Assembly (NCBI GenBank): GCA_022703505.1 | Contig: JAKLDN010000005.1 | Location: 124,001 to 188,000, forward strand | Length of the DNA stretch: 64,000 nucleotides | Origin: Spirochaetota bacterium | GTDB lineage: Bacteria; Spirochaetota; Spirochaetia; Treponematales; UBA12059 | Direction of reading: 5' to 3' | In this document: positions 43,684 through 49,489 of the stretch, in pieces | Position numbering within the stretch: the first letter of the stretch is position 1 | How the letters are laid out: each line of letters begins with the position of its first letter | The notes under the pieces: model-generated | What the model was told of the DNA's origin: nothing | The model's input: only the letters and a program-made list of their open reading frames with translations | Databases searched by the model: none | Program-made: the position numbers and the translations under genes

Positions 43684-45222
43684 ATGGACGCTAGCGAACC
43701 GAAGGTCCCCCTGGTGGAGATGAGGGGCATCCGAAAATCCTTCCCCGGGGTCACGGCCTGCGACGGCGTGGACCTCCGCCTGGGCCGGGGCGAAGTCCTG
43801 GCCCTGCTGGGGGAGAATGGGGCGGGCAAGAGCACCCTCATGAACGTGCTGGCGGGCCTGTACCGCCCCGACGAGGGGGAGATCCGGATCGGCGGCAAGC
43901 CGGTCGAGATCCGTTCCCCCCGGGACTCGGCCGCCCACGGGGTGGGCATGGTCCACCAGAACTTCATGCTGGTGGACACCATGACCGTGGCCGAGAACGT
44001 CGTCCTGGGCATGGCCGGGCTTCCCCTGGTGCCCGACATGGCCGAGGTGAAGCGTTCCGTCCTGGAACTGGCGGAAAAGTACGGCCTCCGGGTGGACCCG
44101 GATGCCTACGTCTGGCAGCTTTCCGTGGGAGAGCAGCAGCGCGTGGAGATCCTGAAACAGCTCTACCGCAAGGCGGAGATCCTGGTCCTGGACGAGCCCA
44201 CCGCGGTCCTCACACCGCAGGAGTCCGAGGAGCTCAACGTCGTGGTCCAACGCATGAAGGCGGAGGGCAAGAGCGCGGTCTTCATCACCCACAAGATGGA
44301 GGAGGTGATGACCTTTTCCGACCGGGTCATGGTGCTCCGGAAAGGAAAGGTTGTAGTGGAGAAGGTCACCTCCGAGACCAGCCCCCGGGACCTGGCCAAG
44401 CTCATGGTCGGAAGGGAGGTCCTGTTCCGGGTGGAGAAGAAGTCCTTCGAGCCGGGGGCGGTCATCCTGGAGCTCAAGGATGTCCGCGCCCTGGACGACC
44501 GGGGGCTTCCGGCCCTGCGGGACCTGTCCCTCAAGGTCCGGGCCGGCGAGATCCTCGGCATCGCCGGGGTGGCCGGGAACGGCCAGCGGGAGCTCTCCGA
44601 GGTCATCACGGGCCTGCGGCCGGTGAGCTCCGGGGGGATCTCCATCAACTGCGTGGAGACGACGAACAAGACCCCCCTCGAGATCATCCGGAGCGGGGTC
44701 AGTCACATTCCCCAGGACCGGATCGCCGTCGGCGCCGTGGGAGACATGAGCGTGGCCAGCAACCTGGCCATGAAGGGCTACCGGGACGCGCCCATTTCCC
44801 GGGGGGTCCTGCTGTTGCCGCGTCGCATCCTGGACCTGGCCCGGCGCATGATCGAGAGCTTCCGCATCGCCACCCCCTCCCCGGAGACCCGGGTGAAGTT
44901 CCTGTCCGGGGGCAACATCCAGAAGACCATCTTGGCCCGGGAGATCGAGTCCTGCCGCAGCCTCCTGGTGGCCGTCTACCCCTCCCGGGGGCTCGACATC
45001 GGCGCCACCGAGGCGGTCCGCAAGGAGCTGGTGGCCCAGCGGGACGCGGGCATGGCGGTCCTCCTGGTATCCGAGGACATCGAGGAGCTCCTATCCGTGG
45101 CCGACACGGTTCTCGTCCTCTACGAGGGCCGGGCCATGGGGACCTTCCCCTCCGCGGAGGCGGATCCCGAGGAGCTCGGGCTCCTCATGGCCGGAGTCGA
45201 GCGCAAGGAGACCGTGTCATGA
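43684..45222 (+). CDS. Nucleoside-type ABC transporter ATPase (two ATPase domains)
   Basis: 512 residues from ATG 43684, with AAGGTGA upstream. First ATPase: Walker A LLGENGAGKSTLM, signature LSVGEQQRVEILKQL, Walker B ILVLDEPTAVLTP. Second ATPase: degenerate Walker A GVAGNGQREL, signature LSGGNIQKTILARE, and Walker B-like VAVYPSRGLD. This asymmetric fused pair is standard for the RbsA/NupO/YufO class that works with BMP receptors. A long leader frame upstream of 43684 is rejected as it crosses the terminator. Confidence 0.95.
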   Translation: MDASEPKVPLVEMRGIRKSFPGVTACDGVDLRLGRGEVLALLGENGAGKSTLMNVLAGLYRPDEGEIRIGGKPVEIRSPRDSAAHGVGMVHQNFMLVDTMTVAENVVLGMAGLPLVPDMAEVKRSVLELAEKYGLRVDPDAYVWQLSVGEQQRVEILKQLYRKAEILVLDEPTAVLTPQESEELNVVVQRMKAEGKSAVFITHKMEEVMTFSDRVMVLRKGKVVVEKVTSETSPRDLAKLMVGREVLFRVEKKSFEPGAVILELKDVRALDDRGLPALRDLSLKVRAGEILGIAGVAGNGQRELSEVITGLRPVSSGGISINCVETTNKTPLEIIRSGVSHIPQDRIAVGAVGDMSVASNLAMKGYRDAPISRGVLLLPRRILDLARRMIESFRIATPSPETRVKFLSGGNIQKTILAREIESCRSLLVAVYPSRGLDIGATEAVRKELVAQRDAGMAVLLVSEDIEELLSVADTVLVLYEGRAMGTFPSAEADPEELGLLMAGVERKETVS

Positions 45223-46313
45223 GCATCCTCTTCGAGAAGCGCAAGAACATCTCCCGGACCGCCCAGGTCCTGGTTCCCGCGGCCTCCTTCGTCGTGTCCC
45301 TGATCCTAACGGGGATCCTGCTCCTGGCCTTCGGGGCGGACCCCTTCGCCACGTACCGGGCCATGTTCCGGGGGGCCTTCGGGAGCGGACGGGCCTTCAC
45401 GGAGACCCTGGTCAAGGCGATTCCCCTGATGCTCACCGGCCTGGGCGTGGCCCTGGCCTTCCGGCTCCGGTTCTGGAACATCGGAGCCGAGGGCCAGCTG
45501 ACCCTGGCCGGGGTCGCGGCGACGGGGGTGGCCATCTTCTGGGGCCGGTGGATGCCCTCCTTCCTGCTCCTGCCGACGGTCATCCTGGTCGGCTGCCTGG
45601 CCGGCGCCGCCTGGGCGGGCATACCCGCCCTGCTCCGGACCCGGCTGAAGGTGGACGAGACCCTGGTCACCCTGATGCTCAACTACGTGGCCATCCTCTT
45701 CTCGGAGTACCTCTACTACGGCCCCTGGCGGGACCCCAAAGGCTACGGGTTCCCGGGCACGGAGCCCTTCCCCGAGGCCGCCTGGATGCCCCGCATCGCG
45801 GGCCGCGCCCACCTGGGCCTCGTCTTCGCCCTGTTCCTGGCCTTGGCGCTCTGGTTCGTGCTGAACCGTACCCGCTGGGGCTTCGAGCTCAAGATCCTCG
45901 GGGCCAGCCCCCAGGCTGCGCGCTACCAGGGCATCTCGGTGGAGCGCAACATCGTCCTGGCCATCCTGGTGTCCGGGGCCCTCTGCGGCCTTGCGGGGGT
46001 GGGCGAGGTGACGGGCATCTCCCGGCGCCTCCAGCAGGGCCTTTCCCTGGGCTACGGGTACACGGCCATCATCGTGGCCTGGATGGGCCAGTTGAACCCC
46101 CTGGCGGTGCCCTTCGTGGCCGTCCTGATGGCGGCCCTCCTGGTCGGGGGGGACCAGGTGCAGATGATGATGGGCCTCCCGGCCTCCATGGGCATCCTGA
46201 TGCAGGGGATGATCCTCTTCCCCCTCCTGGCGGGATCCCTCTTCACGGAGTACAGGATCAAGCGGACGGCGCGGCACCCGGCGGCGGGCGCCGCGGCCGA
46301 GGGAGCGGAATGA
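45219..46313 (+). CDS. ABC transporter permease 1 (nucleoside type)
   Basis: 364 residues, start in an ATGA overlap with the ATPase stop. About eight to ten membrane helices. Family stretches: PLMLTGLGVALAFRLRFWNIG and AEGQLTLAGVAATG near residue 70-95, LVTLMLNYVAILFSEYL near 145, GFELKILGASPQAARYQGIS near 220. Pairs with the second permease at 46310 in BMP-dependent importers (YufP-like). Confidence 0.93.
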   Translation: MSILFEKRKNISRTAQVLVPAASFVVSLILTGILLLAFGADPFATYRAMFRGAFGSGRAFTETLVKAIPLMLTGLGVALAFRLRFWNIGAEGQLTLAGVAATGVAIFWGRWMPSFLLLPTVILVGCLAGAAWAGIPALLRTRLKVDETLVTLMLNYVAILFSEYLYYGPWRDPKGYGFPGTEPFPEAAWMPRIAGRAHLGLVFALFLALALWFVLNRTRWGFELKILGASPQAARYQGISVERNIVLAILVSGALCGLAGVGEVTGISRRLQQGLSLGYGYTAIIVAWMGQLNPLAVPFVAVLMAALLVGGDQVQMMMGLPASMGILMQGMILFPLLAGSLFTEYRIKRTARHPAAGAAAEGAE

Positions 46314-47263
46314 TGGACCTGATCACCTCGATATTGACGATCACCCTGAGGGCGGGCACGAGCCTCGTGTACGCCACCATAGGGGAAACCTACACGGAAC
46401 GGGCGGGCATCCTGAACCTGGGGCTCGAGGGCATCATGCTCATGGGGGCGGTTTCCAGCTTCGCCGTGGTCTACTACTCCGGGAGCCTGGCCCTGGCCCT
46501 CCTGACCGCCGTGGCCGTGGGAGGCCTGCTCTCCCTGATCCACGCCTTCCTGACGGTCACCATGCGGGCCAACCAGGTGGTGAGCGGCCTGGCGATCACC
46601 CTCTTCGGAACCGGATTCGCCAGCTTCCTGGGCCAGCGCCTGGGGCCGGCCTCCAACGGCCGCTACCTGGTGGGACTCACGGGACCGAGGTTCGCCCCGG
46701 TCGACCCGGGCGCCCTGGGGCGGATCCCCGTGCTCGGGGCCTTCCTGAACCAGGATCTCCTGACCTACGGGATCTACCTGCTGATCCCCCTGGCCTGGTT
46801 CTATCTCTACCGGACCCGTAACGGCCTGTGGCTGCGGGCGGTGGGCGAAAATCCCCGCACCGCGGACGCCATGGGGGTCCCGGTGTTCCGGGCCAAGTAC
46901 ATCTACACGGTCCTGGGCGGCATGCTGACGGCCCTGGGCGGCGCCCACCTCTCCCTGGCCTACACCCCCGGCTGGTCCGAGAACATAACCGGCGGCCGGG
47001 GATGGATCGTCATCGCCCTGGTGATCTTCTCCATGTGGAACCCCGCCCGGGCCATAACCGGAGCCCTGATCTTCGGGGGGATCAACGCGGTCCAGTTCAG
47101 GCTCCAGGCCTCGGGGACGAACATCCCCGCGGGATTCCTGAACATGCTGCCCTACATCGCAACCATCGTCGTGCTGGTGGCGATCACCTGGTGGGAGACC
47201 CTGAGCAAGCGGATCGGCGCCCCGGCGTCCCTGGGCACCTCGTACATGCGGGAAGACAAATAG
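46310..47263 (+). CDS. ABC transporter permease 2 (nucleoside type)
   Basis: 317 residues from ATG 46310 (ATGATG), overlapping the previous stop by 4 bases; ATG 46313 is equivalent. Family stretches: AGTSLVYATIGETYTERAGI, LNLGLEGIMLMGAVSSF, ANQVVSGLAITLFGTGFAS, GLWLRAVGENPRTADAMGV. About eight membrane helices (YufQ-like). Last gene of the BMP operon. Confidence 0.93.
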   Translation: MMDLITSILTITLRAGTSLVYATIGETYTERAGILNLGLEGIMLMGAVSSFAVVYYSGSLALALLTAVAVGGLLSLIHAFLTVTMRANQVVSGLAITLFGTGFASFLGQRLGPASNGRYLVGLTGPRFAPVDPGALGRIPVLGAFLNQDLLTYGIYLLIPLAWFYLYRTRNGLWLRAVGENPRTADAMGVPVFRAKYIYTVLGGMLTALGGAHLSLAYTPGWSENITGGRGWIVIALVIFSMWNPARAITGALIFGGINAVQFRLQASGTNIPAGFLNMLPYIATIVVLVAITWWETLSKRIGAPASLGTSYMREDK

Positions 47264-47270
47264 CAGCGTT

Positions 47271-47354
47271 GCTGTCCAAAAAGCGGTTGGCTTTTTGGAC
47301 AGCTGGTTCTAGTACTGCAGGTGTGCCCATTGGTAACCGACCGATGGGCACACC
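47271..47354 (+). terminator. Two perfect hairpins after the BMP operon
   Basis: GCTGTCCAAAAAGC-GGTTG-GCTTTTTGGACAGC (47271-47303; 14-bp stem) is followed by GGTGTGCCCAT-13 bases-ATGGGCACACC (47320-47354; 11-bp stem). Neither has a following U-tract. Both stems are perfect, and the first is A/T-containing, unlike the usual GC hairpins of this genome. Confidence 0.65.
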
Positions 47355-47391
47355 GGGCTTCGTCGAAGTATAGTCACGGATCACGGGGACC

Positions 47392-47420
47392 TTTGATTTT
47401 TCCCGCTCAGAGGCTATACT
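47392..47420 (+). promoter_or_regulatory. Promoter of the helicase-like gene
   Basis: TTTGAT (47392-47397), 17 bases, TATACT (47415-47420). The predicted start near 47427 leaves about 44 bases to GTG 47471. Confidence 0.65.
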
Positions 47421-47470
47421 AACGGCAACGGCAGTCCAATCCCCGAGGGGTTCCGCCGAGAGAACGACGA

Positions 47471-49489
47471 GTGAGCGTCGCCTCTCCGGTACCCCGTCCC
47501 GGCGCCCCGAGCGCCTCCGCGGTCCGCCGGACCGCGCCGCCCCAGCCTCAGGCCGGCGGCAATTCGTATCGCGAAGCGAGTAACCGTATGAACCTTATTG
47601 ATTTGGGCCTCCAGGAAGGCCTGCTTCACGCGTTGGAAGCGCGGGAACCGGATGCGGCGTATCCGTTCCTCGAAAAGATCGTTCAGGCCGTGAACCGACG
47701 GAGAGAGAACGTCTCCGCCCAGGTCCGGATCGGCACCGGCCGGGAGCTTTTGTACCTGGCGCCCCTGCTCCAGTGGCTCCTCGAGGAGGACCCCGAGGGC
47801 CGGGGCCTGGTGGTCGTGCCCTCGGATCAGGACGTGGCCGCGGCAGCCGACGGCGCGGCCGCCCTGACGAAGGAGCTGGGGATCACCGCGCACATCCTGG
47901 GCCGGGATCCGGATACCGAGGATTCCACGGCCCGCCTGGCCGTCGGTTCCGTGGAGGCCCTGTCCTCCCGCCAGGAGGCGGGCAGCCTGGACCTGGGAGG
48001 CTTCGGCTTCGTGGTCGTGGACGGGCTATCCCGATTCATCGAGCCCCCCTTCAGCGGAGCCCTTCGCAGGATCGGCGCCCGGCTCCGCCCTCCCCGGGAG
48101 CGGCGGACCATCCTCTTCTCCGAGCGCCTGGGCCTGAAGGAGCAGACCCTGGCCCTGGAGCTGGCGGACGCTCCCGAGGAGCTATACCTGGAGGAGGAGG
48201 CGGAGAAGACCAAGCACCTCCCCCAGACGACCTGGTACGTAGCGGCGGAGAACAAAGTCCGCCTCCTCCTAGGGGTCCTGGGTTCCGAGCCCAAGGGTCC
48301 CGTCGCCGTCCTGTGCAACCTGCCGGAGACCGCCCAGGACCTGGTCCGCAGACTCGGCGCGAACGGAAAGCGGGGGGAAGCCGTCCTCGAGAATCCCGCC
48401 CCGTCCCGGAAGGAGGCCATCCTAGCCCGAGCCCGGTCCGGGGAGTTGGAGGCGGTGGTCCTCACGGATGAAAGCCTCCGGGGCCTCCCCCGGGGCGCCT
48501 TCCGCCAGGTGATCAACTACGACATCCCCCTGGAGGGGGAACCTTACCTGGAACGGATCCGGCTGTTGGACGCCTCCGCTCCGGGGGCTCGGATCCTGAA
48601 CTTCGCCTGCGACCGCTACGTCTACGGCATCCCCGCGGTGGAGCAGTTCATGGGCATCTCCCTGGGGGCCGTCCAGGCCGACGATTCCCTTCTGGCTCCG
48701 GCGGACCGGAGCTCGGCCGCGGCCCCGGGCCGCGGCAATCGTCCCCGGGACGACCGGAACGGCTGGAGGTCGGACCGCCCCCAGGAACGGGGCCGGGAGG
48801 ACCGGCCTTTCCGGGACGGCAGCCCGGACCGCGGACAGGTCCGCCGGGAAGCGGGACCCCGCCCCCGGAACGAAGGGGGCTTCCGCCGGGACGGCCGCGG
48901 CCGCGACCGGGAGGGCGACCTGCGCAACCAGGAGTCCATCCGGGCGGGGATCGCGGAGCTCACGGGGGTGAACCTTGGCGGATCGAGCGCCCGGTCCCGA
49001 GGTCCGGATGCTCCGCCCCCCCGGGACCGGGAATCCCAGGACCGCGGCCCCCGTCCCGAGGGGCCGGGCCGCGGGAACCGGAGGAACAAGCGCGGACGGC
49101 GCGGTCCCGCGGGCGGAGGCGCTCCCCGCGGCGCCGGACCCGTGACCCAGCCCTCCTTCGCGGACCCCTACTCCCTGCCCATGGAGGAGAGGATGCGGCT
49201 GTACAAGGAGAAGTACGGCAAGCACCTGGCCGAGAATCCGGAGCCGAAAGCCCAGGGCCGCAAGAAAGGCCGCAGGCGGCGGGGCAGGCATCCCGGAGCC
49301 GAGGGACCGGGCGGCGGGCCCCAGAACGGGGCTCCGTCGCGCACGGAATCCGGAGGAACCCCCTCCGATTCGACCGGCCCGTCCTCCGCGGGCGCCCCCG
49401 ACTCCTCCTCCCAGCCGGGCGGCGCGGATCGAAGCGGTCTGTTCGGCCGCATCTTCAACGGCTCCCGTAAGGAAGAAGACCGGGACTGA
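47471..49489 (+). CDS. Degenerate DEAD-box helicase-like protein with RGG/DR-rich tail
   Basis: 672 residues from GTG 47471; ATG 47588 (MNLIDLGLQEGLLHAL) is an alternative where homology appears to begin. The order of two RecA-like domains of a DEAD-box RNA helicase is recognisable, but motifs are altered. Motif I is RIGTGREL instead of AQTGTGKT, motif II is VVDGLSRF where VLDEADRM is expected, motif III reads FSE, and motif VI lacks HRxGR (YLERIRLLD). Domain 2 keeps VAVLCNLPETAQDLVRRL and RQVINYDIPLEGEPYLERI. Residues about 410-670 are disordered, rich in Arg, Gly, Asp and Pro, typical of RNA-binding tails. It is unlikely to hydrolyse ATP; an RNA-binding scaffold is inferred. Confidence 0.75.
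   Translation: MSVASPVPRPGAPSASAVRRTAPPQPQAGGNSYREASNRMNLIDLGLQEGLLHALEAREPDAAYPFLEKIVQAVNRRRENVSAQVRIGTGRELLYLAPLLQWLLEEDPEGRGLVVVPSDQDVAAAADGAAALTKELGITAHILGRDPDTEDSTARLAVGSVEALSSRQEAGSLDLGGFGFVVVDGLSRFIEPPFSGALRRIGARLRPPRERRTILFSERLGLKEQTLALELADAPEELYLEEEAEKTKHLPQTTWYVAAENKVRLLLGVLGSEPKGPVAVLCNLPETAQDLVRRLGANGKRGEAVLENPAPSRKEAILARARSGELEAVVLTDESLRGLPRGAFRQVINYDIPLEGEPYLERIRLLDASAPGARILNFACDRYVYGIPAVEQFMGISLGAVQADDSLLAPADRSSAAAPGRGNRPRDDRNGWRSDRPQERGREDRPFRDGSPDRGQVRREAGPRPRNEGGFRRDGRGRDREGDLRNQESIRAGIAELTGVNLGGSSARSRGPDAPPPRDRESQDRGPRPEGPGRGNRRNKRGRRGPAGGGAPRGAGPVTQPSFADPYSLPMEERMRLYKEKYGKHLAENPEPKAQGRKKGRRRRGRHPGAEGPGGGPQNGAPSRTESGGTPSDSTGPSSAGAPDSSSQPGGADRSGLFGRIFNGSRKEEDRD

Follow-up and report, generated by a model that had tools for sequence, protein, structure and literature searches.

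Retention under purifying selection of a DEAD-box paralogue lacking its catalytic motifs in two families of spirochaetes

Background

Pseudoenzymes are well known among kinases; pseudohelicases are few, and the paper describing Utp25 counts two (PMC9539457). According to that 2022 paper, Utp25/Def, a eukaryotic DEAD-box pseudohelicase of the small-subunit (SSU) processome that is essential in yeast, is just the second pseudohelicase to have been proposed, PriA of Deinococcus radiodurans being the first (PMC9539457). PriA of this species is a bacterial pseudohelicase that binds nucleic acid and a partner helicase and is without ATPase activity (PMC4504706). The literature searched, most subscription literature being outside its reach, contained no previous description of a bacterial DEAD-box pseudohelicase.

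The window, that is, the whole stretch of 64,000 nucleotides that was analysed, encodes on the + strand, like all features of the gene given below, a 633-aa protein (47588..49489) related to DEAD-box helicases. Like Utp25/Def, it combines two DEAD-box-type RecA-like domains, in which the motifs are vestigial, with a long disordered region; for Utp25, too, duplication followed by divergence has been proposed as the origin, and Utp25 is functional without catalysis (PMC9539457). However, Utp25 is eukaryotic and its disordered part is N-terminal; no specific relationship is claimed, and the spirochaete degeneration is a separate event that started from an RhlB/CshA-like bacterial helicase. Like D. 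radiodurans PriA, the protein belongs to a bacterial helicase family with degraded motifs common to a lineage (PMC4504706), whereas PriA acts in DNA replication restart, is not a DEAD-box protein and has no described active sister. The window protein shares with its RhlB/CshA-type sister, L098, the domain order, a full-length profile match, the tail composition, a tail motif and a C-terminal peptide. Unlike L098, which has all catalytic motifs, it keeps no ATP-site motif intact.

Results

Profile searches indicated homology to the DEAD-box superfamily across both RecA domains. The degenerate RecA1-like domain (47588..48202) alone matched Pfam DEAD with 31.5 bits (cut-off 26), and the RecA2-like domain (48203..48709) gave a weak match to Pfam Helicase_C (E 0.022). 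Against solved structures, the single protein found DEAD-box helicases (CshA, E 4e-12), and the clade profile matched solved DEAD-box proteins over both domains (E 1e-37) and the active sister family over 377 columns (E 1e-68). AlphaFold with three close sequences modelled most of RecA2 well, with pLDDT values mostly of 77-91 over residues 231-310. The RecA2 model matched DEAD-box RecA2 structures with Z of about 15-17 and rmsd mostly of 2.4-3.0 over approximately 130 residues, indicating a predicted DEAD-box RecA2 fold. With the three sequences only, pLDDT was under 50 for residues 1-219 (RecA1), so the assignment of RecA1 as a RecA-like fold rests on the sequence profiles. The two-domain helicase order recognised in the preliminary description was confirmed, and the structure prediction it had proposed agreed with a DEAD-box fold for RecA2, RecA1 being poorly modelled.

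Motif I was found as RIGTGREL (47726..47749), with the Walker A lysine changed to arginine, while VVDGLSRF (48014..48037) stood in place of DEAD and LFSERLG (48113..48133) in place of the motif III SAT. The motif V remnant LTDESLRGL (48461..48487) kept Thr-Asp. In the motif Vb/VI region, INYDIPLEGEPYLERIRLLD (48512..48571), only the first arginine of HRxGRxxR was left, and C-terminal to motif VI a clade signature, FACDRYVYGIPAVEQ (48602..48646), had its R and Y in 30/30 sequences. The Walker A GxGKT, DEAD and HRxGRxxR sequences and the RecA1 RNA contacts expected of a DEAD-box enzyme were not present.

These losses were counted over the clade of orthologues. The Walker A lysine was found in 0/30 sequences (arginine in 23/30) and the Q-motif glutamine in 0/30, compared to 18/18 for both in the active sister family. 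The threonine next after the lysine was also absent (0/30), while the catalytic glutamate of the DEAD motif and the motif III threonine were each left in 1/31. Both the motif VI histidine and arginine finger R2 were found in 0/31 sequences, against 18/18 in the active family; arginine finger R3 was left in 9/31 and was absent from the window protein. The RecA1 RNA contacts (PTREL, TPGR and GG) were gone as well, with the Ia arginine in 2/30, the Ib arginine in 0/31 and the first glycine of GG in 0/31. In the active family, the motif residues examined were nearly all 18/18. Since the same residues were missing clade-wide yet complete in the sister family, the substitutions are, on this alignment, neither sequencing error nor chance. 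The residues kept in the clade were the cysteine of motif IV (CN) in 31/31, the threonine (26/31) and aspartate (27/31) of motif V, the aspartate and proline of NYDxP (31/31) and the first arginine of motif VI (31/31). Over half of the clade still had glycines in the Walker A loop, and the replacement residues at the lost motifs differed from genus to genus.

Judged by its sequence, the protein can be firmly classed as a DEAD-box pseudoenzyme, presumably dead in catalysis. The preliminary description had read RIGTGREL, VVDGLSRF, FSE and the missing HRxGR correctly, and its further claim that all catalytic motifs were lost was accurate for motifs I, II and III and too broad for motif IV (CN), motif V (Thr-Asp) and the first arginine of motif VI. 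Its proposed alignment of orthologues in search of conserved substitutions revealed the same losses across the 31-genome clade.

RecA2 was the better conserved of the two domains, with a mean pairwise identity within the clade of 0.40 compared to 0.29 for RecA1, whereas both domains reached 0.67 in the active family. The mean net charge of RecA1 was -5.3 in the clade versus 0.2 in the active family, and the core of the pseudohelicase was acidic (pI 4.9). The lost RecA1 contacts, the charge shift of RecA1 and the identity gap between the domains together suggest that the core has probably ceased to act as an RNA clamp and that constraint appears to fall on RecA2.

A search of 59 relatives gave two score classes. 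When 294 genomes from the order were searched with a profile, the matches above about 380 bits were full-length and all fell in two families, f1 and f4, while a second, active family scored 230-270 bits. The catalytic motifs were absent in every case from the high-scoring class and were retained in the second family wherever they were read. Genus g17 of f4 (G030, G036, G044 and G050) was divergent, lower-scoring and likewise degenerate. Intact orthologues without stops were present in 31 genomes, all from these two families of one Treponema-type spirochaete order. In the phylogenetic tree, a single clade (support 100) contained the 31 degenerate proteins and lay next to the active RhlB-like family; within this clade, all f1 proteins grouped together (99) and those of f4 fell into two groups. 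The tree shows that the clade had a single origin. One clade with support of 100 fits a single duplication and a single loss of catalysis before the f1/f4 split, followed mainly by vertical descent. At E 1e-85, a search of 393 genomes sampled from the phylum gave no pseudohelicase outside f1 and f4; this cut-off would overlook divergent members such as genus g17. The pseudohelicase was also missing from several genomes of its own family (G004, G007, G013 and G014).

Within the genus of the window, dN/dS (NG86) was 0.22-0.26 for the core and 0.23-0.35 for the tail, values that are estimates because dS was 0.5-0.9; the core of the active sister gave 0.06-0.08. NG86 is quoted since the dS of YN00 was unstable: every comparison between active sisters, and one between pseudohelicases, gave errors. 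Purifying selection acts on the gene, though less strongly than on the active sister, and relative to dS the gene evolves 3-4 times faster than the sister. Its faster evolution and its absence from the four genomes named above indicate that the pseudohelicase is dispensable.

A glucan phosphorylase gene was the neighbour in 18/28 loci compared, including the window, in a comparison where one congener was represented only by L039 and another by L071. Oxidoreductase and polyprenyl synthetase genes were neighbours in most relatives and were absent in the genus of the window. A functional operon with any of these genes was considered and rejected, the arrangement being read as shared position only. 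Intact orthologues, conserved gene order and dN/dS rule out a pseudogene. The earlier impression that the gene is retained rather than decayed was borne out by the 31 intact orthologues, their single clade, the shared gene order and the core dN/dS of 0.22-0.26, which is far below 1. An intact copy kept under selection in about thirty spirochaetes is probably a working RNA-handling scaffold or adaptor and not a dead gene.

The genome of the window encodes the active sister L098, in which every catalytic motif was kept. A search of 26 genomes with the active sister showed that the three from the window's genus carry it (92-100% identity), and both copies occurred together in most family-1 genomes. 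The sister was not found in eight genomes (G030, G033, G036, G038, G044, G050, G053 and G062) in which the pseudohelicase sequence had been read. The best matches in these eight were other DEAD-box types of 32-40% identity, and the true f4 sister (G028, G041) scored far above them. Some of the sister-less genomes are drafts of 88-99% completeness, and assembly loss alone is unlikely to explain all eight gaps. The pseudohelicase of these genomes is thus not merely a subunit of the sister. The sister family resembles RhlB/CshA. Against the RhlB subfamily NF003419 (NCBIfam), the pseudohelicase scored 99 bits, below the curated cut-off of 588 for membership.

RNase E/G was absent in 16/16 genomes tested, and RNase E was accordingly rejected as a partner. 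RNase Y exceeded the cut-off in 14/16 and was split in G053. G044 (93% complete), unlike the other genomes tested, had no significant full RNase Y match (best E 5e-5). G041:C41:10018-11514 gave a full-length RNase Y match with one in-frame TAG, which may reflect a sequencing error, a pseudogene or recoding.

The tail (48710..49486) consists of 259 aa and is basic, R/G/P-rich and, by composition, of disordered type, with 48 R, 47 G, 30 P, 11 RG and 9 DR, a pI of 11.3 and no Pfam domain. What had been called an RGG/DR tail of about 260 residues was right in length and in having RG and DR pairs, although the 259 aa contain no RGG triplet. Comparison of tails revealed a motif, NQESIRAGIAELTGVN (48926..48973), retained across much of the clade. 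Another, DPYSLPMEERMRLYKEKYG (49163..49219), was common to the pseudohelicase and the active sister and occurred in no further protein of the window's genome. The profile of this motif, PYxLSMEERMKLYKEKYG, found at most two proteins per genome in 11 genomes, always the pseudohelicase and the sister or whichever was present; no other protein of the 11 genomes carried it, and the remaining matches had E > 0.2. A C-terminal peptide, SGLFGRIFNGSRK (49433..49471), of a type shared with the active sister, was amphipathic as judged solely by its hydrophobic moment (about 0.64). The two paralogues thus have in common a basic low-complexity tail, the PYxLSMEERMKLYKEKYG motif and the C-terminal amphipathic peptide. 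A private motif common to a dead and a living paralogue suggests a shared docking partner. Since the core is acidic and the RecA1 RNA contacts are lost, RNA binding, if any, probably resides in the basic tail.

The ORF was present and intact in the window. The preliminary description had listed the gene from 47471, where a GTG stands; indels in two congeners break the frame between this GTG and position 47588, making it an unlikely start, and comparison with the same number of congeners showed that ATG 47588 (conserved in L039 and L040) and most bases directly 5' of it were invariant. ATG 47588 is therefore almost certainly the real start. Upstream, two promoter-like sites (47345-47374 and 47393-47420) were observed versus 0.1 expected, and the second, a sigma-70-like TTGATT-16-TATACT, was kept in L040, in agreement with the proposal that the gene has its own promoter. 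Folding and congener comparison pointed to a structured 5' leader of about 160 nt (47428..47587), within which a hairpin, GCGGTCC/GGACCGC (47518-47536), was seen in 3/3 congeners. The series of leader hairpins was alike in the window (47428-47587), L039 (378-520) and L040 (4851-5000), with z of -1.9, -1.1 and -3.0, respectively. The leader is possibly autoregulatory; every Rfam match around the gene was below the gathering score.

Two BPD_transp_2 permease genes (45219-47263) lie upstream of the pseudohelicase gene, where most relatives have a divergent oxidoreductase gene instead; the locus has been rearranged locally in the genus of the window. Between these genes and the pseudohelicase gene are two strong inverted repeats, 47271-47303 (14 nt, perfect) and 47320-47354 (15 nt at 93%), possibly a transcription end.

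Discussion

We consider it somewhat probable (about 55%) that the protein is a lineage-specific pseudohelicase that arose by duplication of an RhlB/CshA-like gene and serves as a non-catalytic adaptor or scaffold of RNA decay, with a docking function, an RNA-holding tail and a membrane peptide. The duplication would have preceded the split of the two spirochaete families. One copy would then have lost ATP binding and hydrolysis together with the RecA1 RNA contacts, while retaining its fold, its RecA2 surface and the docking motifs of its tail. Through RecA2 and the MEERMxLYKEKYG motif, this copy would bind the partner that the active helicase also binds; RNA would be held by the Arg-rich tail, and the complex may be kept at the membrane, the site at which RNase Y starts decay, by the amphipathic peptide at the C-terminus. 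An adaptor of this kind would agree with three observations, namely a tail motif that is specific to the family and common to both paralogues, the conservation of the RecA2 surface and the occurrence of RNase Y. We infer that the protein would be inactive in vitro, that its tail binds RNA, that it attaches to the membrane and that it has a partner in common with the sister, for which RNase Y is a candidate. Least certain in this mechanism are the involvement of RNase Y and the attachment to the membrane.

The two chief alternatives are regulation of the sister and a role in ribosome assembly. The shared tail motif and C-terminal peptide, the restriction of the motif to this family and the occurrence of both copies in most family-1 genomes would also suit a regulator that tunes the activity of the sister, either by pairing with it or by competing with it for a docking site that both use. 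This is rather unlikely, and the eight pseudohelicase genomes without the sister mean that it cannot be the only role. DEAD-box proteins frequently act in ribosome assembly. A factor acting there in the manner of eukaryotic Utp25 in the small-subunit processome would account for the same kind of degeneration, which in Utp25 accompanies an essential function in yeast (PMC9539457), but it is improbable given that no ribosomal genes lie in the neighbourhood, that the sister family resembles the decay-type helicases RhlB/CshA and that the pseudohelicase is not universal in its family.

Arginine in place of the Walker A lysine in 23/30 sequences and the loop glycines in more than half could be read as signs of a nucleotide-dependent enzyme still active with unorthodox residues. 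This is very unlikely, because the Q-motif glutamine, the threonine after the lysine, the catalytic glutamate, SAT, the histidine and R2 have almost entirely disappeared from the clade and what replaces them differs between genera. It is hardly credible that the gene is a decaying paralogue on its way out; it evolves faster than the sister and is absent from some genera, but the ORFs are intact in 31 genomes of two families, dN/dS is far under 1, and position, RecA2 and tail motifs are conserved.

Beyond the adaptor reading, we suggest only tentatively that this class of bacterial DEAD-box pseudohelicase has replaced an RNA-decay helicase in its structural function. One branch of the second family would then have lost the sister, leaving the pseudohelicase as sole bearer of the docking motif, and G009 would be a further case, since the only RhlB/RhlE/DeaD-type protein found there is degenerate. 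A family with an active sister, an exclusive docking motif and natural losses of the sister would allow DEAD-box catalysis to be cleanly distinguished from scaffolding in RNA turnover.

In G009, which is 99% complete, L103 (2368-4149, - strand) encodes a protein of 594 aa that carries the tail motif of the family and has no GKT, DEAD or HRIGR; at E 1e-15, nothing else in this genome matched the active sister. Support for putting this copy inside the pseudohelicase clade was 93-94, and the alternative placement with the active f1/f4 sisters, with an AU p of 0.33, was not rejected; its degeneration is perhaps a second, independent loss of catalysis.
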